Part shown: positions 1,325 to 42,921 of the stretch, piece by piece | How the letters are laid out: each line of letters starts with the position of its first letter | Numbering within the stretch: the first letter of the stretch is position 1 | Assembly: GCF_014698445.1 (NCBI RefSeq) | Contig: NZ_JACJSZ010000027.1 | Location: 1 to 42,921, forward strand | Length of the DNA: 42,921 nt | Direction of reading: 5' to 3' | Source of the DNA: Microcystis elabens FACHB-917 | Lineage (GTDB): Bacteria; Cyanobacteriota; Cyanobacteriia; PCC-6307; Cyanobiaceae | Notes under the pieces: model-generated | What the model was told of the DNA's origin: nothing | The model's input: only the letters and a program-made list of their open reading frames with translations | Databases searched by the model: none | Position numbers and translations under genes: made by a program

Positions 1325-4300
1325 ATGTCCACCGACATCAGCGAAAAGGGCCTGGAAGGGCTGATCGTGCGGGCCATGACCGGCCGCACCGACCTGCTCG
1401 TGCCGCCCCATACGCCCACCGGCTTCGACGCACCCGTCGCCGGCGGCACGGGCTGGTTGCTCGGCGACCCCAGGCATTACGACCGCGGCTTCTGCATCGA
1501 CCTGGTGCAGCTGCGCGGCTTTCTTGAGCTCAGCCAACCCAAGGTGGCCGAGGCACTGGGCCTCGACACCGATGGCCCCGCGCGGCGGCAGTTCCTAGCC
1601 CGCCTGTCGGGCGAGATCGGCAAGCGCGGCGTCATCGACGTGCTCCGCAAGGGTGTCTCCCACGGGCCGCACCACCTGCAGCTCTTCTACGGCACGCCCT
1701 CGCCGGGCAACGCCAGGGCGGCGGAGCTGCACGCCCAGAATCGCTTCTCGGTATCGCGCCAATTCGCCTACAGCAATGACGAGACCCGCCGCGCTCTCGA
1801 CCTGGGCCTGTTCATCAACGGCCTGCCCGTGGCCACCTTCGAGCTGAAGAACAGCCTCACCAAGCAAACCGTCACCGATGCGGTGGAGCAGTACAAGCGC
1901 GACCGCGATCCACGCGAGCCACTGTTTGCCTTCGGCCGCTGCGTGGTGCATTTCGCCGTCGACGACAGCGAGGTGCGGATGTGCACCGAACTCAAGGGCA
2001 AGGGGTCGTGGTTCCTGCCCTTCAACCAGGGGCACCACGACGGCGCCGGCAACCCGCCCAACCCCGACGGACTCAAGACCGACTACCTGTGGAAAGAGGT
2101 GCTTACGCCGGCGGGGCTCACCGATATCCTCGACAACTACGCCCAGATTGTGGAGGAGAAGGATCCACGCACCGGCAAGAAGAAACGCAAGCAGGTGTGG
2201 CCGCGTTTCCACCAGCTCCAGCTCGTGCGCCAGGCGCTCGCCGATGTGGCTCTCCATGGCGCTGGCAAGCGCTACCTCATTCAGCACTCGGCGGGTAGCG
2301 GCAAGAGCAACTCGATCGCCTGGCTCGCCCACCAGCTGATCGGGCTCAAGCGCGATGGTGATCCCGACGGACCTGAGATCTTCGACTCCGTAATCGTCGT
2401 CACCGACCGGCGCATCCTCGACAGCCAGATCCAGGCCACGATCAAGCAGTTCATGCAGGTGGGTGCCACCGTTGGCCACGCTCAACGCTCAGGCGATCTG
2501 CGCAAGTTCATCGAAGAGGGCCGCAAGATTATCGTATCGACTGTGCAGAAGTTTCCCTTTATCCTTGATGAGATTGCTTCTGAAGCTGGCAAGTCCTTCG
2601 CGATCCTCATCGATGAAGCGCACTCCAGCCAGGGTGGCAAAACCTCGGCCGCGATGAGTGAAGCGCTCGGGGGCCGTGCCGCCGCCAACGCTGCCGCTGC
2701 CACCGATACAGACGATTCGGGGCCCGACCCGGAAGACACGGTGAACGAGGCACTCGAGCGCCGCATGGCTGCGCGCAAGATGCTCACCAACGCCAGCTAC
2801 TTCGCGTTCACCGCCACGCCCAAGAACAAGACGCTCGAGATGTTCGGCGAGCCCCTGCCCCCAGATGGTGAGGGCAAGATCAAGCATCGGCCCTTCCACA
2901 GCTACACGATGAAGCAAGCCGTGGATGAGGGCTTCATCCTCGATGTGCTCAAAGCTTACACACCGGTTGAGAGCTACTACAAACTTGTGGCCAAGGTCGA
3001 AGACGATCCCGAGTTCGACACCAAGAAGGCCAAGAAGAAGCTCCGGCGCTATGTGGAGAGCCACGACCATGCGATCCGACTCAAGGCCGAGATCATGGTT
3101 GACCACTTTCACGAGCAGGTGATCGCGAAGGGCAAGATCGGCGGCGAAGCACGGGCCATGCTGATCTGCAATGGCATTGAGCGTGCGATTCAATATTTCT
3201 ACGCCTTCAAGGCCTATTTGCTTGAACGCAAAAGCCCCTACAAGGCGATCGTGGCGTTCTCAGGCGAGCAAGAGTTTAGCGGTGACAAAGTCAGCGAGGC
3301 ATCTCTCAACGGCTTTTCGAGCGCCGAGATCGCCGACAAGATCCAGGAGGATCCTTACCGGTTCCTCATCTGCGCCGACAAGTTCCAGACCGGTTACGAC
3401 GAGCCTCTGTTGCACACGATGTATGTCGACAAGCCGCTCTCTGGCGTCAAGGCGGTGCAGACCCTCTCGCGCCTCAACCGTGCCCACCCCAAGAAGCACG
3501 ATTGCTTCGTGCTCGATTTCCAGAACAACATCGAGGGTGTGAAAACTGCCTTCCAGGCTTACTACCGCACCACGTTGCTGGCCGAGGAGACCGACCCCAA
3601 CAAGCTGCACGACCTCAAGGCGGCGCTCGACGCTTCCCAGGTGTACGCACAGGCCCAGGTGCTCGAGGTTGTGGAGAACTTCCTTTCCGGGGCGGACCGG
3701 GAGACGCACATCGATCCGATTCTTGACGCCTGCAGGGCGGTGTATGAGGAGCAGCTCGATGAGGACGGGCAGGTTGAGTTCAAGGGCAAGGCCAAAGCCT
3801 TCTGCCGCACCTATGCCTTTCTCTCGTCGGTGATCGCCTACAGCAACGCCGAGTGGGAGAAGCTCTCGATTTTCCTGGACCTGCTCACCCCCAAGCTGCC
3901 CGCGCCAAAAGAAGAGGATCTCGCCCATGGCATCCTCGAAGCCATCGACATGGACAGCTACCGAGCGGAGAAACAGGCTGCCATCAAGATCGCTCTTGCT
4001 GATGAAGATGCCGAGGTTGAACCGGTGCCAACTGATGCAGGCGGCAGGAAGCCGGAGCCCGAGCATGATCGGCTCAGCAATATTCTGCAGGCTTTCAATG
4101 ATCAGTTCGGCACATTGTTCGACGACGGCGATCGCGTGGTGCGCCGCATCCGAGATGACATCGCCCCTAAGGTTGCCGCCGATGCCGCCTTCCAGAATGC
4201 CAAGGCCAATACACCACACACCGCACGCATGGCGCATGATGCTGCTCTCGGCCGAGTCATGCAGCTTCTACTGAAGGACGACACCCAGGTTTACAAGCAG

Positions 4301-4366
4301 TTTGTCGAGAATGAGTCGTTCCGTAGGGCGGTTACGGATATGGTCTTTACAATCGCGAACCAGTAA
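1325..4366 (+). CDS. hsdR: Type I restriction enzyme, motor/nuclease subunit HsdR
   Basis: A 1013-residue protein of normal family length. The N-terminal nuclease domain has the PD-(D/E)XK pattern, with D near residue 159 and the ELK triad near 173-175. The SF2 translocase follows: Walker A in QHSAGSGKS near 318-326, DEAH in ILIDEAHSSQGG near 430, FTATPKNKTLEMFG as motif III, and QTLSRLNRAHPKK as motif VI. It would translocate DNA and cut distantly when bound to HsdM and HsdS. The reading frame looks intact, but the only HsdS visible is truncated and no hsdM lies in the window, so the complex is probably not functional from this locus. The ATG at 1325 is the first plausible start before the nuclease domain. 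Confidence 0.93.
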   Translation: MSTDISEKGLEGLIVRAMTGRTDLLVPPHTPTGFDAPVAGGTGWLLGDPRHYDRGFCIDLVQLRGFLELSQPKVAEALGLDTDGPARRQFLARLSGEIGKRGVIDVLRKGVSHGPHHLQLFYGTPSPGNARAAELHAQNRFSVSRQFAYSNDETRRALDLGLFINGLPVATFELKNSLTKQTVTDAVEQYKRDRDPREPLFAFGRCVVHFAVDDSEVRMCTELKGKGSWFLPFNQGHHDGAGNPPNPDGLKTDYLWKEVLTPAGLTDILDNYAQIVEEKDPRTGKKKRKQVWPRFHQLQLVRQALADVALHGAGKRYLIQHSAGSGKSNSIAWLAHQLIGLKRDGDPDGPEIFDSVIVVTDRRILDSQIQATIKQFMQVGATVGHAQRSGDLRKFIEEGRKIIVSTVQKFPFILDEIASEAGKSFAILIDEAHSSQGGKTSAAMSEALGGRAAANAAAATDTDDSGPDPEDTVNEALERRMAARKMLTNASYFAFTATPKNKTLEMFGEPLPPDGEGKIKHRPFHSYTMKQAVDEGFILDVLKAYTPVESYYKLVAKVEDDPEFDTKKAKKKLRRYVESHDHAIRLKAEIMVDHFHEQVIAKGKIGGEARAMLICNGIERAIQYFYAFKAYLLERKSPYKAIVAFSGEQEFSGDKVSEASLNGFSSAEIADKIQEDPYRFLICADKFQTGYDEPLLHTMYVDKPLSGVKAVQTLSRLNRAHPKKHDCFVLDFQNNIEGVKTAFQAYYRTTLLAEETDPNKLHDLKAALDASQVYAQAQVLEVVENFLSGADRETHIDPILDACRAVYEEQLDEDGQVEFKGKAKAFCRTYAFLSSVIAYSNAEWEKLSIFLDLLTPKLPAPKEEDLAHGILEAIDMDSYRAEKQAAIKIALADEDAEVEPVPTDAGGRKPEPEHDRLSNILQAFNDQFGTLFDDGDRVVRRIRDDIAPKVAADAAFQNAKANTPHTARMAHDAALGRVMQLLLKDDTQVYKQFVENESFRRAVTDMVFTIANQ

Positions 4367-4531
4367 CTGCCTGGGTGGCCCGGGCTAACATCACGATTCA
4401 GCGGACGGGGCTCATGATTGCATCTGAATGCAACTTGTTGCGGCCCGCCGCTGATCTTGAGCGTTGGGCTTACCATCAAAAGTGATCGATCAGACAAGGT
4501 CCTGGAGTAAGCTTGAAATCAACGATGAAAA
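4367..4531. other. Intergenic gap after hsdR
   Basis: No gene is seen. A small inverted repeat (4418-4433, six-base arms around CTGA) could form a weak hairpin, but it has no following T tract and is not a convincing terminator. Base composition falls from the high GC of hsdR to clearly lower GC entering the next gene. Confidence 0.5.
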
Positions 4532-5242
4532 ATGACTGACAGAAAGCTGAAAGACTTACCCGGAGAAGCCATAAGCGATTTGCCTATTGAGGATGTTGCT
4601 CTTGTAGTTCTTCAAGACCTACACGAGCACAAACAGCTTGTCAGGCAAAGTTGGTTCAATGATGCGAAATGCTACTTTGGAGAAGGGTCGCACTTGTAGA
4701 TCCTAATTGAGGTTTGGGCATGGCTGCAAGCTAGGGCTCAAATTGCCTCATGCCCATACGCATTGCAAGAGAAAGTAATCGTAACTAGAGCTGGAAGACG
4801 TTCTGCCATTCAATCATGCCTTCAGGCGATAATTGCAGGCGAAAGACTGGGGCTCCACCTCCATCCATCATTGGCGGGTAAAATTAGACCGATATTTCTG
4901 ATAGGTGATTACGAGACGTCATCTTTTAAGGCAATGAAAGAAGTAGAGGTGCGTGTTCGGCAATTGAGCAATCTCCCTGACAGCTCAGTAGGAGTAGCTC
5001 TGATGCAGAAAGCCTTTGAAGTTGCGAAAGGCCCATTGAAAAACCCATCACATGAAAATGGCGAGAAACAAGCTCGGTCTGATTTATTTGCGGGGGCTAC
5101 AGGAAGCTTCAAGAATCCTGCCAGCCACAGAGATGTATCCTACGACGACCCCATTGAAGCCAGTGAAGTCATAACGACGGCTGATCTATTGATGCAAATT
5201 CTCGATCAGGTAGAACGCGATATTGATGGTTGGCAGAAGTAA
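4532..5242 (+). pseudogene. TIGR02391 (Ymh)-family protein interrupted by one in-frame TAG
   Basis: The ATG at 4532 opens 55 codons (DLPIEDVALVVLQDLHEH segment) and stops at TAG 4697-4699. The same frame then continues without shift through EVWAWLQARAQIA, VIVTRAGRR and the family's hallmark C-terminus with LFAGATGSFKNPASHRDV to the stop at 5240-5242. Ignoring the TAG, the protein is about 236 residues with the N-terminal, middle and HEPN-like C-terminal blocks of TIGR02391 in order, so this looks like a single nonsense mutation in an otherwise whole gene. A TTG at 4763 could start the C-terminal piece alone (159 residues). The family is uncharacterised and often found in defence or mobile islands. 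GC is well below the flanks, suggesting transfer. Confidence 0.7.
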
Positions 5243-36522: not shown

Positions 36523-37490
36523 GCAGAGCTGCCCAAAAGTCCGTTCAGGTCGTGCCCGGTTCCATCGCCACTCCACCCAGCGTCAACATCCCCCTGAAGT
36601 CGTAGGCCAGCTCCCTCAGTCCCTGGCGGATCGGTCGGTAGCCGCCGCGACGCAACAGGTTCATCACCACGGTGCGCAGAAACGAGAACACCGGCACACC
36701 GTTGCGATTGGCGTAGCGGTGGGCGTCCTCACCGAGCTGGGCGTCCCGGGCCGAGTGCCACTCGTTTTCAATGCTCCAGCGCTGGCGGATCAGTCGTAGC
36801 AGGGCCTCTGGGGCGGTTCGCACGGTAGCGATCAAATACAGGGTGCGTACTGCCCGCCTGCCTTTGCGGGTCACGGTGGTGCTGGTCAGCTCGATGATCC
36901 AGCTGCAGCCAGGCCAGTTCTCCCTGATGTGCTCCGGTGCCTCCTTGGCCCGCAGAACCCAGATGGTGTCACGGCCATGCTTATCGGCCTGAGCCGTTGC
37001 CGCGTAGGGGATGTGCCGTTTTCCCTGAAACTGGCTCTGGATCTGGCGATGGAGGGTCTTCTGGTTGGTTTTGTTTGACGGTCAGGAGCAGGTCGGCGCC
37101 CTGCTCCTGGCACCAGTGAAAAACGGGCGCGTGGTGTGCAGGGCATCCGCCTGGATCAGCACACCGTCAAGATCCAACGTGGGGAGCAGCTCTTTCAGGG
37201 CCGCACGCTCACTGGATTCCCCGGTGTCATAAGTCGTCTGGGCCAGGGCCACGCCAAGGGCTCGGGCGTAGACCGTCACCTGGGCAACGAACCGGTGACT
37301 GCCATCCTGGGCCTCCACCGCAGGGCCCCGCAGCGTCTTGCCGTCACACACCAGCTGCTCCAGACCCTCGCTCCCACCTGGGATCTGGCTGATCATTCAG
37401 GCCTGAAGCACCTGGCCGAATGACTGCAGGTGAGCCTTGTTAAACAGATACAGGAAGGTGGCATCAGAGGGCCAGCGCTTGAACGTCAGG
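36523..37490 (-). pseudogene. ISAs1-family transposase with several lesions
   Basis: Read leftward, pieces of an ISAs1 transposase appear in order: LTFKRWPSDATFLYLFNKAH, a TGA where a Trp codon is expected (near 37397), then LVCDGKTLRGPAVEAQDGSH and GVLIQADALHTTRPFF, then frameshifts near 37113 and 37075, and finally LIRQRWSIENEWHSARDAQL with LGEDAHRYANRNGVPVFSFL. The DDE-type catalytic blocks are recognisable but split over frames, so it is inactive. A likely terminal repeat (CAGAGCTGCCCAAAAGTCCG) starts at 36523. It is head-to-head with another ISAs1 piece. Confidence 0.8.
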
Positions 37491-37499
37491 CCCAGCAGG

Positions 37500-37622
37500 G
37501 TGACACCAGCTCGGCGCTGACACTGGCACTGGGATGCTCAAGCGTCTGCCAGAGCAGTGGAATGGCTCGCCCGTGGCAGACCACGGAGAGCGCCACAACA
37601 CAGAAGCGGTTACAGAGCACGG
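37500..37622 (-). pseudogene. IS4-like transposase fragment
   Basis: A leftward frame of about 40 residues (NRFCVVALSVVCHGRAIPLL, then WQTLEHPSASVSAELV) matches the strand region around the second catalytic Asp of IS4-type transposases. It is wedged between two ISAs1 remnants and has no start or end. Confidence 0.5.
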
Positions 37623-37624
37623 TG

Positions 37625-38287
37625 TGCAGTGCGTTTTATCGCCCAGGTGAGCCTGTACTCCAACACCCTTGGGGTGGCGATAGCCCAAAACACCTACGCC
37701 ACCGATGCCGGCGGCGAGATCGCGGCACTGCGCCAGCTGTTGGATCGCGTCGAGCTCAACGGCTTGCTGGTGCAGGCCGACGCGCTGCATGCGAACCGCC
37801 CTTTGTCCTCTACCTCGAGCAACGTGGCGCCGACTTCCTGATCGCGGTGAAACACAGTCGCCGCAAAGAGTTTCAGGTGATCTGTGATCGACTCACCTAT
37901 GGCCGTAAGGCACCGCATGAATGGAGCCAGCGCGAACGCAGGCGGGGCCGTGACCTGCGCTGGACGCTGCGGGGGATGCCTGCACCGCCCTGGGTGGTGG
38001 AGAACTGGCCGGGTAGCGCCACGATCCTGGCGGTGCGCTGCAAGGGCATCCGAGAGGGCAAGCCCGTCGATGAGACCCATTACTACGTCACGAGTTTGCG
38101 CACCACCGCAAAGGCCCTACTGCAGCATGTCCGCGACCGTTGGTCGATCGAGAACTCCTGGCACTGGCCCTGCGACACCCAACTCCGGGAGGACGCGCAT
38201 CGCTACCGCGAGAGCAACGGCGTGCAGATCATGGCCACACTCCGCAGCCTGGCTGTGAATGCCCTACGGCTCGATGGATATTGGTAG
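37625..38287 (+). pseudogene. ISAs1-family transposase, second copy, N-truncated and frameshifted
   Basis: Rightward. RFIAQVSLYSNTLGVAIAQN and LNGLLVQADALHANRP are in one frame up to about 37798; a one-base shift then gives FVLYLEQRGADFLIAVKHSR, HYYVTSLRTTAKALLQHVRD and DRWSIENSWHWPCDTQLRED to TAG at 38285-38287. The N-terminal DNA-binding part is missing. It is a different copy from the leftward one, judging by sequence differences (RWSIENSWHW versus RWSIENEWHS). Confidence 0.8.
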
Positions 38288-38402: not shown

Positions 38403-39104
38403 TCAGTCATTGGGAAAGCTAGTAGCCTTGATATCTAGAATATCAAAGGCACGCTCCAGTGCCACCTGTTTCCCTTGGGCAAGCACACCATTGAAGAGAG
38501 GGCATACATAAAATAGATTATTGTGTGTCTGGCTAGGCTCATTTTCAATTGCATGGGCTACGGCTTTTAGAACGGTTGCGCTATCACGATAGATATAGGT
38601 GCCCACCGATGCTTGATCTGAAATTACTCTTTTCTCTGCAGCTCCCACGACTCGCCCGCTTTTGTCGCTTGCCAAGTAGCTATATTGAAGATTCTGTGAT
38701 TTAAATACCAAAGCGATCGCACCTACATCCGAGTGTGCTTGAAATGCTTGCTCGATGTCTATATTAGCCTTGTAAATAATGTCGGCTAAGTCAATTATTA
38801 AAGGCAGGCAAAACTCATTCATTACTGATAGGCCGGCAAGAGCGCTCATGGCAGCTCCACGGCTGAATGTAGCAAGATAAATTATAGAGCATCCCGGATG
38901 CCATTGGCTCAGGTGCTCATGGGCGAATTGCCTTGTTTCGTAGCAATCATAGAGTACAAATGAATAGCTCTTGGCCTTAGGGGCCCACGGCCTAGAATCG
39001 AGCGCATACTTCAGAAGTGGCTGACCTTGAAAGGGCTCTAAGGCTTTTATACTTCCGTCTGCGCGCACGAAGTCCGGGCCGGCCAAAGGAACAATCACGT
39101 GCAT
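38403..39104 (-). CDS. Nucleotidyltransferase-like protein, degenerate site
   Basis: 233 residues, last gene of a leftward AT-richer operon. The fold is a sugar-nucleotide transferase: HVIVPLAGPDFVRADGSIKA, LEPFQGQPLLKYALDSRPW, FCLPLIIDLADIIYKANIDI, VVGAAEKRVISDQASVGTYI and FYVCPLFNGVLAQGKQVALE. The glycine-rich nucleotide loop is weak (PLAGPDFVRADG, lacking GxGxR), so activity is uncertain; it may be a regulatory or partner subunit. It follows the double-domain gene with a five-base gap. Related in pattern to both domains of that neighbour. Confidence 0.72.
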   Translation of the reverse strand: MHVIVPLAGPDFVRADGSIKALEPFQGQPLLKYALDSRPWAPKAKSYSFVLYDCYETRQFAHEHLSQWHPGCSIIYLATFSRGAAMSALAGLSVMNEFCLPLIIDLADIIYKANIDIEQAFQAHSDVGAIALVFKSQNLQYSYLASDKSGRVVGAAEKRVISDQASVGTYIYRDSATVLKAVAHAIENEPSQTHNNLFYVCPLFNGVLAQGKQVALERAFDILDIKATSFPND

Positions 39105-39109
39105 CGCTG

Positions 39110-40624
39110 TTAATCCGGGGAATCAAGTGATGGTGGGGCACTGCACTGCTGCAGGAATTGGCTGAGATCGTCTGGGGTTCCTAGACCAACCATCGCACCC
39201 ATTGGCACTTCAAAGACCCCAATCCGAGCACCATTTCGTATCATATAGTTATAAACGGGACAAGTGTAAAACTCGTTGTTCACGCGATCATTAGCTACCA
39301 TCATATCCAGAGCTGCTCCAACAAAATCCTTCCCCTTGGCAAATAGATATATGCCAACTGTGGCTAAGTCTGATATGGGCTTTTTCTCTGCTACTTCAAT
39401 TACAAGGCCGGCCTCGTCAACTCTGGCAAATGACCATTTGGGGTCCATGGAAAGATCACGAAAGACCAATATTGAACCATCCAGCTCGCGCTGAATACAA
39501 TCTTCAATAAAATCATTGATGTTAAAGTCGACGAGTTGGTCTGAATTGGCCACAATCATCGGCTGATCATTGTCAAACGTTCGCCTTGCCATTAAAACGG
39601 TTGACGCCGTTCCCTCTGTTAGGCGGGATACCGAAATAATACGATGGCCGCTTTCTTGTAATCTATATGCAATTTTGGGATAAGCATCAAGATGCTGTTG
39701 GCGAAGAAGGATTGTAACGGTAGCGTCTGTTGGCGTGACATTGTTTATGACGTGCTCCAGCATGAGTTGTCCGTTAACATCAATGAATGGCTTTGGCTTC
39801 TTCCACCCTGCGTTTGCAAACCGGCTTCCTTCGCCGGCGGCTGGAATGACCACATTCACTGCTTTTCGAGCAAGCATGCCTTCCCTGATCTCCTTCGCAT
39901 AGGTGGATTTCTCAAAGTCTGCAATCATTCCCGGCTTATAAAAAGAATGATATGCATGGCTTGCAATCGGCAGGTGAAGAACTTTTCCTCCTTCGAGAAT
40001 AATTTCGTTAAGTGATGACGAAATGAAGTACATGCCGTCTACTTGTGCATCGTTTAGGATGACACGTTTTGCTGCTTCAATAAAAGTAGAGGCCGTGCTA
40101 AAATAGTAGAAGCCTGCAATGGCATTGCGAGAGGCGACCTTCTTCTCAAATGTCTGGATCACCTCGCCCTGCTCGTCGCCTGCTATATAAGACCATCTGG
40201 GATGAATTGATTCAAATGTGATAACCCCGGCTGAGCAGTCGTTAGCACTGAAAATCTCAACTACCTGCGCTAGATCATCTTCGATTACTTGATCGCTATT
40301 AGTAATGATTAATGGTTTATTGATATCGAGAGTGTCTATAGCCAACAAGCATGAGCAGAGTGCGCCAGATGTTGGACCAGCCTTCTCGAAGATCCTTGCA
40401 TCTTCTCCAGCGAGAAGTCGAAGAGTGCGGTCAAGAGAGAACGAGCGAGCATCATCCGGGTCAATCACAAATATAAAACTTGCATCCTTAAATTGACGCT
40501 GTAGCTGCCTCACAACAACTTCGATCATTGCCGTGCCAGCCACCTCGATCAGCGGCTTCGGAAAGTAAAAGTCTTCTTTTAAAAAGAATGCTGAGTAGCC
40601 TGAGATCGGAATAAGGATCTGCAT
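39110..40624 (-). CDS. Tandem double nucleotidyltransferase
   Basis: 504 residues from the ATG at 40622-40624. Two NTP-transferase domains are joined. The first (1-~240) has QILIPISGYSAFFLKEDFYF, PKPLIEVAGTAMIEVVVRQL, LIITNSDQVIEDDLAQVVEI, but its nucleotide loop is degenerate. The second (from ~253) has the full VVIPAAGEGSRFANAGWKKP loop, KPFIDVNGQLMLEHVI, MIVANSDQLVDFNINDFI and a C-terminal EVPMGAMVGLGTPDDLSQFL. Only the second seems able to catalyse. It would activate a sugar or polyol phosphate with CTP, UTP or similar. Four bases separate it from the upstream HAD gene. A longer frame to 40684 adds 20 unlikely residues. Confidence 0.78.
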   Translation of the reverse strand: MQILIPISGYSAFFLKEDFYFPKPLIEVAGTAMIEVVVRQLQRQFKDASFIFVIDPDDARSFSLDRTLRLLAGEDARIFEKAGPTSGALCSCLLAIDTLDINKPLIITNSDQVIEDDLAQVVEIFSANDCSAGVITFESIHPRWSYIAGDEQGEVIQTFEKKVASRNAIAGFYYFSTASTFIEAAKRVILNDAQVDGMYFISSSLNEIILEGGKVLHLPIASHAYHSFYKPGMIADFEKSTYAKEIREGMLARKAVNVVIPAAGEGSRFANAGWKKPKPFIDVNGQLMLEHVINNVTPTDATVTILLRQQHLDAYPKIAYRLQESGHRIISVSRLTEGTASTVLMARRTFDNDQPMIVANSDQLVDFNINDFIEDCIQRELDGSILVFRDLSMDPKWSFARVDEAGLVIEVAEKKPISDLATVGIYLFAKGKDFVGAALDMMVANDRVNNEFYTCPVYNYMIRNGARIGVFEVPMGAMVGLGTPDDLSQFLQQCSAPPSLDSPD

Positions 40625-40628
40625 AGGT

Positions 40629-41252
40629 TTAAATGGCCTCAATCTCGCTGATACGGGTTGCAATCGCTTTATATGTAACGTCATCGGGTATGCCTATTCT
40701 AAGCAGGTGACCACCCGATGCTACTGCAGCTTGAATGCCGTGTTCATTATCCTCGAGAATTAAGCATTCATTTGGTTTAACATTTAAGCACTCCATCGCC
40801 TTAATGTATATTTCCGGATCGGGCTTTCCCTTCTCAACGTCTTGGTTGGATATAATTAAGTCAAGATTAGTGGATAGTGCCGAAAGCCTCATCATCGCCT
40901 CGATTGACTGCCGGACAGAATTTGAGCACACTGCTAACTTGTAACCATCATTTTTGAGGCGAGCAAGTGCATACTGGTGATTGAACACAGGTTTGCAGCG
41001 TTGATAGCTGATTTCCAGCGTGTATGCCTGTTTCAGCGCATTGAGAAAGTCGTGAAGGCCCTTTGGTAAGCCTCTTGAGCTGGAGAGTATGCGGAGCTTG
41101 TCTCGTGTTGGCAGGCCATCAAAGGTGGAGAGATGGCTCTCTCGGCTGATCGTGTATCCAAAGTGCTCAAGCGCACGATTGAGAGCGACATAATGCCAGT
41201 CCTTGGCATCAATGAGAACTCCATCCATGTCGAAAAGGATTGCCTTAATCAT
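40629..41252 (-). CDS. HAD-superfamily phosphatase/phosphomutase-like protein
   Basis: 207 residues: AILFDMDGVLIDAKDWHYVA (motif I, D-x-D), YKLAVCSNSVRQSIEAMM (motif II), NQDVEKGKPDPEIYIKAM (motif III Lys) and NECLILEDNEHGIQAAVASG (motif IV). This is the beta-phosphoglucomutase-like subgroup with a helical cap after motif I. In the operon it lies between a phosphodiesterase and the nucleotidyltransferases, so it may act on a phosphorylated intermediate. Six bases follow the GDPD gene. Confidence 0.85.
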   Translation of the reverse strand: MIKAILFDMDGVLIDAKDWHYVALNRALEHFGYTISRESHLSTFDGLPTRDKLRILSSSRGLPKGLHDFLNALKQAYTLEISYQRCKPVFNHQYALARLKNDGYKLAVCSNSVRQSIEAMMRLSALSTNLDLIISNQDVEKGKPDPEIYIKAMECLNVKPNECLILEDNEHGIQAAVASGGHLLRIGIPDDVTYKAIATRISEIEAI

Positions 41253-41258
41253 CGCGAG

Positions 41259-41912
41259 TCAGGCATTGCAGAATCGATTAGCTGCTTCCATCGGTAAATC
41301 AGTGCAGAGTTCGAAGAGTGGGCTTAGATGCAATCCCATTTCTGTAATCTCATTCCATAAGTTCACATGGCTGCGGCGATGTAGTTCTGGTGAAACTATT
41401 GCCACTCTAACCCCTTGTCCTATTAGGTCCTTCGCGGTCTTTACTTGCTGAAATAATCCGTTAAAGTTGTCAATCCATACGCCTTTGGCCATGTCTAAAA
41501 ATGTCGGCATGGGTTCGTAATCGCTAATGCGCGAATAAACGGGAAGATTTCCTTTTAAATATGCAAGGCTGTCTGGCACTGACATGTCGAAGAAAAAGAT
41601 TTGATTGGCATCAAGTCCTGCTTTTTCTAATTCTGATTTAATCATTGCTGCCAGACCGTCCGACTTAATATTTAGGCCAATGCGACCGGCTGATAGTGAC
41701 GAGGCGATTTGCTCAAGAAGCCACTCAATAGTGCTGGGTGGAGGGCTAGCTCGGGGTGGGTCGTGAGAAATAACAACCCTGCCATCCAGATCGCGTAGGT
41801 CGGTCTCGATTCCAAATCCCTCGTCTAATGCTCTTCTTAATGCTTTCGGAGAATTTTTTTCGGATTCACTTACAAACATGCCGCGATGGGCAAGTATCGA
41901 AGAGCGCTTCAT
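41259..41912 (-). CDS. Glycerophosphodiester phosphodiesterase-like protein
   Basis: 217 residues with GDPD catalytic motifs: SSILAHRGMFVSESEKNSP (His-Arg), EGFGIETDLRDLDGRVVISH then DPP (Glu, Asp and second His), and RIGLNIKSDG. The C-terminal part of the barrel is shorter than in standard GDPDs (~240-250). It would open phosphodiesters such as glycerophosphoryl compounds, or act on a related substrate. First gene of the four-gene leftward operon; its upstream region (41913-42095) presumably holds the promoter, but no clear motif was seen. Confidence 0.8.
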   Translation of the reverse strand: MKRSSILAHRGMFVSESEKNSPKALRRALDEGFGIETDLRDLDGRVVISHDPPRASPPPSTIEWLLEQIASSLSAGRIGLNIKSDGLAAMIKSELEKAGLDANQIFFFDMSVPDSLAYLKGNLPVYSRISDYEPMPTFLDMAKGVWIDNFNGLFQQVKTAKDLIGQGVRVAIVSPELHRRSHVNLWNEITEMGLHLSPLFELCTDLPMEAANRFCNA

Positions 41913-42095
41913 TCTGGCCTAGTGACTGTTCATTGATCATACACTTGGTTCCTTCCCTGACGTGTATCCTCTGCAGCATTTCTTAAATCCTGGATCTCCT
42001 TTCGTGTTTCCCGCTAGCAGCCCATTCGGCCGCCGCTCTAGCCAACCTGCTCGCGTCCCTGCCGGCACCAGCCCTGGGGCTCCAACCCCTGGAGA

Positions 42096-42398
42096 TCAAG
42101 GCCAGCCACGTTGGCTTTCTCGATCGCCAGTTCCCTGGCGGGCCCGCTCGGTCTTGCGGGATGACACCATGCCCACGCAGTAGGCGTAGAGCAGAAAGAG
42201 CGTCATCATCCGCGGGTCAAAGCCCTTCTCGCCGCGGGGATCCTTGGCCTGAGCAGGGCTCACGATCGCGGAGAGATCCAGCTCATCCACCAGGTCCAGC
42301 AGGAAATACACCTGGTGGTCTTCTGAGAGCCACTCCCGGGGTGATGGCGGCAGCAGGGTCGTCTGTCCTGGCTGCCAGGGGCGGAAGGTCTTGTGCAT
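42096..42398 (-). pseudogene. IS1182-family transposase, N-terminal fragment
   Basis: About 85 family-like residues: KTFRPWQPGQTTLLPPSPRE, WLSEDHQVYFLLDLVDELDL and DPRMMTLFLLYAYCVGMVSS then RKTERA. After that the sequence diverges (RQGTGDRESQRGWP) and stops, so the catalytic domain is missing. It lies just upstream of the sugar-nucleotide operon and reads in the same direction. Confidence 0.8.
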
Positions 42399-42496
42399 GA
42401 CCCATTCTCTCGCCCAGATGCATTGCTGTCACTGGGATCTGGGCAGATTCACGGGTGTCTGCGGAGAAGGGCGGGGTGGTCTACGCGCAACAGGCT

Positions 42497-42750
42497 CCTA
42501 GTGTGCCGTCCCGGAAATAACAGATAGAATTCGGAGTGTCGCGCTGGGTGCTCCATGGGTCTTGGTCGTCCGATGGCGCCGCTGGTCCTCGGCGAGGACG
42601 AGGTTCAGCAACTGCAGGGCATCGCCAGCTCCCGCTCGCTGCCTCACACTATTGTACAACGAGCCCAGATCGTTCTGGCCTGCGGTGCCGGTGAAACCAA
42701 CACCTCCATCGCCAAGCGAATGGGGTTGACGGGAATGACCACGCTTGCGG
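42497..42750 (+). pseudogene. IS630-family transposase, N-terminal fragment
   Basis: From an ATG at 42555: VLGEDEVQQLQGIASSRSLP and HTIVQRAQIVLACGAGETNT then SIAKRMGLTGMT, the helix-turn-helix start of IS630 transposases. Similarity ends near 42742, where another insertion sequence begins. A probable terminal sequence (GTGTGCCGTCCCGGAAATAA) lies at 42500, next to a TA, the usual IS630 target. Confidence 0.7.
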
Positions 42751-42838
42751 CCACTGCCTTTGCGCCGCTCAGGTGGCTTAAGAGTTCGCTGAAAAACCCG
42801 ACCACCTCTGCGAGAATGGGTCAACTGCCCATTCGTTG

Positions 42839-42921
42839 ATGCGAGGCCAACAGGAGCGCAGCGGCTCCTTGTTCTCCTACGTCTCGATCGAGGAGCGGTT
42901 CCCGAGCAGCCATCCGCTCAG
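42839..42921 (+). CDS. IS5/IS1182-type transposase, first 27 residues (cut by window edge)
   Basis: The ATG at 42839-42841 opens MRGQQERSGSLFSYVSIEER then FPSSHPL, the very conserved start of a DUF772-type transposase family, running off the window. It sits directly after the truncated IS630 gene, so it probably inserted into it. Confidence 0.75.
   Translation, partial: MRGQQERSGSLFSYVSIEERFPSSHPL

Follow-up and report, generated by a model that had tools for sequence, protein, structure and literature searches.

A recurrent GDPD, HAD and nucleotidyltransferase-fold gene cassette in Microcystis elabens FACHB-917 with a probable role in surface-glycan synthesis

What would four closely spaced genes for phosphodiesterase-, phosphatase- and nucleotidyltransferase-like proteins make together, and how did they come to lie in a high-GC cyanobacterial contig? 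The genes occupy positions 38,403 to 41,912 of a 42,921-nucleotide stretch of Microcystis elabens FACHB-917 (contig NZ_JACJSZ010000027.1), the whole of which we call the window. A first-pass annotation, made from the sequence alone, had described a transferred operon of GDPD, HAD and three nucleotidyltransferase domains that could release, reshape and activate a polyol or sugar phosphate for a surface glycan. We followed this up with profile searches, predicted structures, comparison of loci and a phylogeny. The account that we hold to be probable, with moderate confidence, is that the cassette is a widespread module making a nucleotide-activated phospho-polyol or sugar for a surface glycan, that it was acquired horizontally here, and that it is apparently undescribed.

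The gene set and its two layouts

In the tandem protein we refer to the N half as NTN and the C half as NTC, and to the separate single protein as NT1. In operon order the cassette reads:

41259 to 41912, minus strand: GDPD-like protein, first gene, 217 aa; TIM barrel with the motif HR..N..ExD..H, N81-x-K83 at the position of the GDPD E-x-K, and a subfamily motif around VSPELH
40629 to 41252, minus strand: HAD subclass IA protein, 207 aa; family motif DGLPTxxK; best-conserved member (79.2% identical to the Tropicibacter copy)
39110 to 40624, minus strand: 504-aa protein with two nucleotidyltransferase folds in tandem; NTN, without the loop, covers about residues 1-250 and is fused to NTC (about 255-494), which has a canonical GxGSR
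38403 to 39104, minus strand: NT1, loop-less nucleotidyltransferase-like protein, 233 aa; accompanies the fused layout

The spacing of 4-6 bases read in the first-pass annotation is borne out, with gaps of 6, 4 and 5 bases, and all four frames are intact with zero internal stops. The start of the 504-aa gene was set at the ATG at 40624, where the homologues begin; the mechanical open reading frame (ORF) start at 40684 would overlap the HAD gene.

A scan with an alignment of the HAD family recovered at least 80 loci, and the counts below use 64 of these (L127-L190 in our numbering). One archaeal metagenome-assembled genome (MAG; L191), with a HAD 39% identical and NTC, cupin and GDPD nearby, was excluded as borderline, and 15 generic-HAD loci from the same scan (L192-L206) served as controls. 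All loci were searched with profiles that we built for the five domains, and gene order was drawn. GDPD was detected in 62 of the 64 HAD-family loci and NTC in 61, and the partners in none of the 15 controls, so that the gene set is not a chance association. NTN, the nucleotidyltransferase lacking the GxGxR loop, was detected in 52 of 64. Three of the loci counted as misses are truncated or very short: L148 and L162 stop at a contig end just past HAD, and the contig of L180 is 4107 bases long. According to record titles, many of them of MAGs, the loci belong to Pseudomonadota, Bacteroidota, Bacillota, Spirochaetota, Campylobacterota, Verrucomicrobiota, Cyanobacteriota and others; the doubt that the four genes might never occur together elsewhere, raised along with the original proposal, does not hold.

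Two layouts account for most loci. Layout I has GDPD, HAD, NTN, NTC and a small cupin but no NT1, usually in the order GDPD-HAD-NTN-cupin-NTC, and was found in 40 of 64 loci, or 41 with L156, which the script filed as fused but in which the two nucleotidyltransferase genes are separate and a cupin is present. Layout II, that of the window, has GDPD, HAD, an NTN-NTC fusion and NT1 but no cupin; it was found in 9 of 64 loci, which are all nine of the fused loci. In a further 7 loci GDPD, HAD, NTC and cupin are present but NTN was not detected, and the remaining 7 show other patterns or are cut. Among plasmids, of which 12 of 39 matching records were examined, seven regions share both the layout and the order of the window. 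The cupin profile had zero matches in the window, in the nine fused loci and in the seven same-layout plasmid loci. That cupin and NT1 so rarely share a locus suggests a replacement of one by the other.

The phylogeny bears on this exchange independently of the domains that define the layouts, because the tree was built from GDPD and HAD columns only. Layout II (15 of 73 rows) forms one side of a branch with a Shimodaira-Hasegawa-like approximate likelihood ratio (SH-aLRT) support of 87, under our star level of 95, and layout requires one change on the tree against a mean of 13.8 when shuffled. The tree was made by a quick method, with 27 of 69 inner branches starred; it left out L001, L002, L020, L027, L028, L029, L040, L134, L168 and L171, loci in which one or both proteins fell short of the threshold, and rows with a GDPD part of 170 aa or less.

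Some loci depart from both layouts. Four enterobacterial versions (L042, L173, L182 and L184) have no detected NTN and carry an ABC exporter; in each a small protein of about 158 aa (cluster c17; one was tried, with no Pfam match) follows HAD, and three of the four encode a 579-aa-type protein (cluster c10) with no Pfam match. A 1280-base Citrobacter GDPD-HAD stretch, tried as a possible tie to a known antigen, gave zero DNA-level matches in E. coli. A related operon is found on plasmids of Hirschia baltica and Azospirillum brasilense (L045 and L046). It encodes a GDPD-like protein and a second protein made of two NTC-like domains, accompanied by a class II aldolase, a phosphoribulokinase-like kinase, GtrA and a further HAD protein, and may represent a sister pathway that supplies its own substrate.

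Folds and active sites of the encoded proteins

The claim of three nucleotidyltransferase domains has to be revised. The GxGxR loop occurs within the first 45 residues of 181 of 184 NTC domains but in 0 of 72 NTN and 0 of 19 NT1 (counted per locus, some loci overlapping); on distinct sequences the figures are 161/164, 0/65 and 0/19. One of the three NTC exceptions, in L156, is probably a misassigned NTN, and GxGSR is present in the C half of all eight aligned tandem proteins. The EK..IS motif is kept in 172 of 184 NTC, 60 of 72 NTN and 18 of 19 NT1. The roles of GxGxR and EK..IS are those known from the RmlA family, and on this comparison we read NTN and NT1 as having kept the sugar side of the active site and lost the triphosphate side. 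The set would then likely comprise one domain that uses a nucleoside triphosphate (NTP) and two altered ones.

NTC is clear in Pfam. In the predicted structure of the tandem protein (mean predicted local distance difference test score, pLDDT, 88.0; predicted template modelling score, pTM, 0.55) the two halves can be trusted individually but not in their placement relative to each other. NTC has the sugar nucleotidyltransferase fold, with 4evw, a structural-genomics entry for a Vibrio cholerae nucleoside-diphosphate-sugar pyrophosphorylase, at Z 28.0 and 28% identity over 229 aligned residues; the fold of NTN is that of GlmU and RmlA type enzymes (Z about 25-26). NT1 matched no Pfam or NCBIfam model at an expectation value (E) of 0.01 and was placed by comparison with PDB sequences, among which 4evw was its only match (E 2.3e-7). 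Unlike the tandem protein, 4evw is single-domain; the GxGxR loop of NTC is absent from NTN and NT1.

The HAD assignment of the first-pass annotation is confirmed by Pfam, and the best PDB sequence match has E 2.5e-22. The protein shares subclass IA, both catalytic Asp, Lys143 and the Glu-Asp pair with beta-phosphoglucomutases and sugar-phosphate phosphatases (1lvh, 3kbb), but differs from them in Thr49 and DGLPTxxK and in scoring below the family cut-offs. We therefore considered a beta-phosphoglucomutase-like mutase, which would convert a sugar 6-phosphate to a beta-sugar 1-phosphate for NTC to turn into a nucleoside diphosphate (NDP)-beta-sugar, the GDPD-like protein supplying or trimming the sugar phosphate. 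The best NCBIfam match is indeed TIGR02009, the beta-phosphoglucomutase subfamily, at 120 bits, many beta-phosphoglucomutases are among the PDB matches, the nucleophile and acid/base D8 and D10 are invariant (73/73), and the HAD-NTC fusions described below would also suit such a pair. That score is nevertheless under the TIGR02009 cut-off of 153.35, as is the TIGR01990 score of 94 under 189.4. In the Lactococcus enzyme Arg49 binds the distal (second) phosphate, according to the available text of PMC9171722. The corresponding loop here reads DGLPTxxK, with Thr at position 49 in 73 of 73 rows and a likewise invariant Lys52 that might substitute for the arginine. We think the mutase improbable and read this loop, with its invariant Thr49 and Lys52, as tending towards a phosphatase.

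The GDPD-like protein matched no Pfam or NCBIfam model at E 0.01, and its family was placed by PDB sequence comparison and fold. The predicted structure (mean pLDDT 95.8) is a TIM barrel, with 2o55 at Z 19.9, a root-mean-square deviation of 2.5 and 204 aligned residues. Fold ranks 1 and 3 are titled beta-1,3(4)-glucanase (multidomain), and their aligned part has the same N-terminal motif. With known GDPDs (2pz0, 3no3, 7e0v) it shares the TIM barrel (Z 19-20 over about 200 residues) and HR..N..ExD..H, at 14-20% identity in the ten best fold rows. The GDPD motif given in the available text of PMC4926365, HR(X)nEN(X)nExD(X)nHD, is carried by the family: H9, R10, N20, E36, D38, H50 and K83 are invariant in 50 of 50 rows and D51 is present in 42. 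Here too the first-pass assignment stands; among PDB sequences and folds all these resemblances are distant (28% for NTC and 4evw, E 2.5e-22 for HAD, 14-20% for the GDPD-like protein), and no high-identity match to an enzyme of an unrelated pathway, which had been named as a point that would count against the original reading, was found there.

The GDPD-like family differs from known GDPDs at one ligand and in extra invariant positions around VSPELH and WxDxF. The same available text of PMC4926365 places Glu111 and Lys113 of a Pyrococcus GDPD at E-x-K, and has Ala at any of three metal ligands inactivating a Thermoanaerobacter GDPD. In the present family the third metal-binding Glu is replaced, the position equivalent by motif reading Asn81-x-Lys83 in 50 of 50 rows, which makes plain GDPD activity uncertain. 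Asn serves as a calcium ligand in mammalian phosphatidylinositol-specific phospholipase C, and by that analogy activity with an altered metal site is possible. The same substitution weakens a pathway of the cytidine diphosphate (CDP)-glycerol or teichoic type, in which the GDPD would release glycerol phosphate and NTC would make CDP-glycerol. The GDPD fold, the His pair and the surface-glycan context would agree with that pathway; known glycerol-3-phosphate cytidylyltransferases, however, are a separate, small family, and we judge it very improbable.

Horizontal acquisition and the state of the window copy

The cassette has a GC content of 46.3% against 69.3% in the remaining window, a deviation that the first-pass annotation had reported together with mobile debris on both sides. 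The flanks are:

36545 to 38287, both strands: left flank, broken pieces of a DDE transposase (DDE_Tnp_1 in Pfam)
42050 to 42921, no strand assigned: right flank, reaching the contig end; genome-repeated pieces read from own-genome matches as mobile-element remnants

The left-flank sequence has 16 matches in its own genome and the right-flank pieces 26, own copies included in both cases, which marks the right flank as repeated DNA; two right-flank ORFs tried had zero Pfam matches. In a search for a flanking repeat bounding the insert, only short, imperfect repeats were detected.

Within the genus, the GDPD-like gene was found in the window's own genome only (1 of 42), and within the class in 13 of 388 genomes at E 1e-10, its own among them; six of these matches are much weaker, at 1e-30 to 1e-17. 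The nearest relative among the fetched loci is a copy on a Tropicibacter oceani plasmid, 54.4, 79.2, 61.3 and 50.9% identical in operon order, and the window is its sister in the tree of joined GDPD and HAD proteins (SH-aLRT 99). This pair lies among copies from Alphaproteobacteria, together with a single Prochlorococcus record. Further copies from cyanobacteria (Nostoc, Pseudanabaena, one genome of the same family) fall in the opposite group of the tree; the GDPD and HAD row of the Pseudanabaena locus (L160) is identical to that of L023, a genome of the window's class. The rarity in the genus and the plasmid-borne nearest relative support transfer well, in line with the first-pass annotation, and the cassette was very probably acquired horizontally from elsewhere. 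The nearest relatives are poor candidates for the direct donor, since their cassettes have GC contents of 62.9% (Tropicibacter) and 61.0%, well above the 46.3% of the window copy.

Whether the window copy is used is a separate matter. It may be a passenger between mobile-element remnants, without a partner transferase and weakly or not expressed, a state that we regard as possible but unlikely. Its occurrence in a single genome of the genus and the repeated DNA on either side would fit a passenger, as would a sigma-70 consensus scan, in which 3 promoters were found where 5.5 are expected, hence no excess; terminators numbered 5 against 3.5 expected. WavE, the transferase family most often found beside the cassette (see below), was not found in the host's own genome, but the same search was also blank in 14 of 14 control genomes and is hence uninformative. 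Against a mere passenger, the operon is retained whole with four intact frames, and 64.7-72.0% of third codon positions differ from the Tropicibacter copy as opposed to 8.2-40.0% of first and second positions, a bias that covers the entire history since the split from Tropicibacter and not the time in this host alone.

Surface-glycan context, phage relatives and a proposed route

The proposed link to a surface glycan is strengthened by the neighbours. In a Pfam scan of 102 of 130 listed flanking proteins (the 28 omitted include WavE-like and ABC-transporter genes of the enterobacterial loci), the commonest family was WavE (PF07507) with 11, followed by GT2 with 6 and then by sugar dehydratases and Wzx-like polysaccharide and ABC-2 exporters. 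With a profile built from the loci themselves, which favours them, WavE-like genes were detected in 24 of 64 loci and 10 of 80 viral loci but in none of the 15 controls; the Pfam WavE count is free of that bias. On two Azospirillum plasmids the WavE gene and the end of the NT1 gene share four bases. A WavE protein compared with PDB sequences had no match at E 1.

Phage relatives point to a functional core. Among IMG/VR loci recovered with the HAD alignment (L047-L126), HAD and NTC lie in one ORF in 71 of 80, with HAD always first; the same fusion was seen in L032 and L033. These viral proteins (from cyanophages and others; PHROGs 3980, 29467 and 8468) have the same HAD and NTC domains as the cassette, but as one fused protein where the cassette has separate genes. 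The fusion suggests that HAD and NTC act consecutively. Phages apparently possess both central steps of the pathway. The GDPD-like profile matched 15 of the 80 viral loci, only 2 of them above 60 bits, and a viral-contig search with the tandem protein alone confirmed none. Five of 19 phages were examined; in cyanophages B23 and S-CAM9 the HAD-NTC fusion lies amid glycosyltransferase genes. Six PHROGs are matched by these proteins, five listed as of unknown function and the sixth as HAD-superfamily hydrolase. In a Rickettsiales MAG (L188) HAD is fused to NTC with cupin and GDPD nearby, so that the fusion is not exclusively viral. Anti-phage defence was considered as a function and rejected, as PADLOC gave no match for the four proteins of the cassette.

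From the gene set and its conservation, the folds, the invariant active-site residues, the genomic context and the phylogeny we infer a route, with its reactions, order and substrate, that the window copy may also use. The GDPD-like enzyme would cleave or cyclise a phosphodiester to give a small phosphorylated compound, and the HAD protein, likelier a phosphatase than a mutase, would take off one phosphate. NTC would activate the product with an NTP, NTN acting as its partner that does not bind NTP. NT1 may fill the role of the layout I cupin, isomerising, handing over or gating the substrate, and attachment of the residue to the glycan would fall to a transferase, often WavE. The order release, reshape, activate proposed in the first-pass annotation is thus plausible. 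The heptose pathway has a bisphosphate substrate on which a phosphatase acts before nucleotidyltransfer, and the cassette would by analogy resemble it if its substrate were a bisphosphate. A more unusual, new course to activated surface-glycan residues is conceivable and seems to us rather unlikely: NTN and NT1, having lost NTP binding, would have been recruited to another step, the Asn-type GDPD-like protein would act on an NDP-linked or phosphodiester intermediate, with a neighbouring hydroxyl as the attacking group, to give a cyclic or rearranged phosphate used downstream, and cupin and NT1 would be interchangeable for one step.

Several observations weigh against the surface-glycan module that we prefer. 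The loci were chosen by HAD, so that co-occurrence is conditional on that gene, and many come from MAGs. NTN was undetected in 12 of 64 loci, the three truncated or very short ones (L148, L162, L180) included, and is therefore not strictly required. The exchange of cupin and NT1 is near-exclusive but imperfect, because L172 and a plasmid locus (L044) combine a cupin with a protein whose best score is for NT1. A WavE-like gene was undetected in the fetched stretch of 40 of 64 loci, and the copies on the Rhizobium tumorigenes and K1/93 plasmids adjoin a carbohydrate kinase/isomerase operon, with no glycan genes in the displayed stretch. No transferase adjoins the cassette in the window, and the search for WavE in the host genome, uninformative as it was, found none.

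As a kind, the cassette is a sugar-activation module of surface-glycan loci; what is new is the way its parts are combined, together with a GDPD of the Asn type and nucleotidyltransferases without the loop. No description of it was found in the open-access literature, and a prior one is possible in subscription journals, most of which that search did not cover. Spread over phyla and with parts in phages, the cassette is likely to make a common constituent of surface glycans that escapes annotation: Pfam and NCBIfam have no matching model for two of its proteins, and the rest are matched by broad models only. The cassette offers a defined enzyme set with WavE as probable partner, and the exchange of a cupin for a loop-less nucleotidyltransferase is a natural experiment on the replacement of a pathway step. 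In cyanobacteria it may affect the surface recognised by phages.

The rest of the window was surveyed through 61 ORFs selected from 86 of at least 150 aa in positions 1-36100. In agreement with the first-pass annotation, no glycosyltransferase is among the 25 families displayed of 40 found at E 1e-5, a survey that is not exhaustive. Type I restriction-modification pieces lie near the other end of the window: Methylase_S at 279-968, and HSDR_N and T1R_D3-like with one match each among the 61 ORFs, probably in a 1013-aa ORF at 1325-4363. The GC fraction dips briefly to 0.46 at 4501-5000, and the cyanobacterial domains DUF3685 and DUF3727 are also present among the scanned ORFs.

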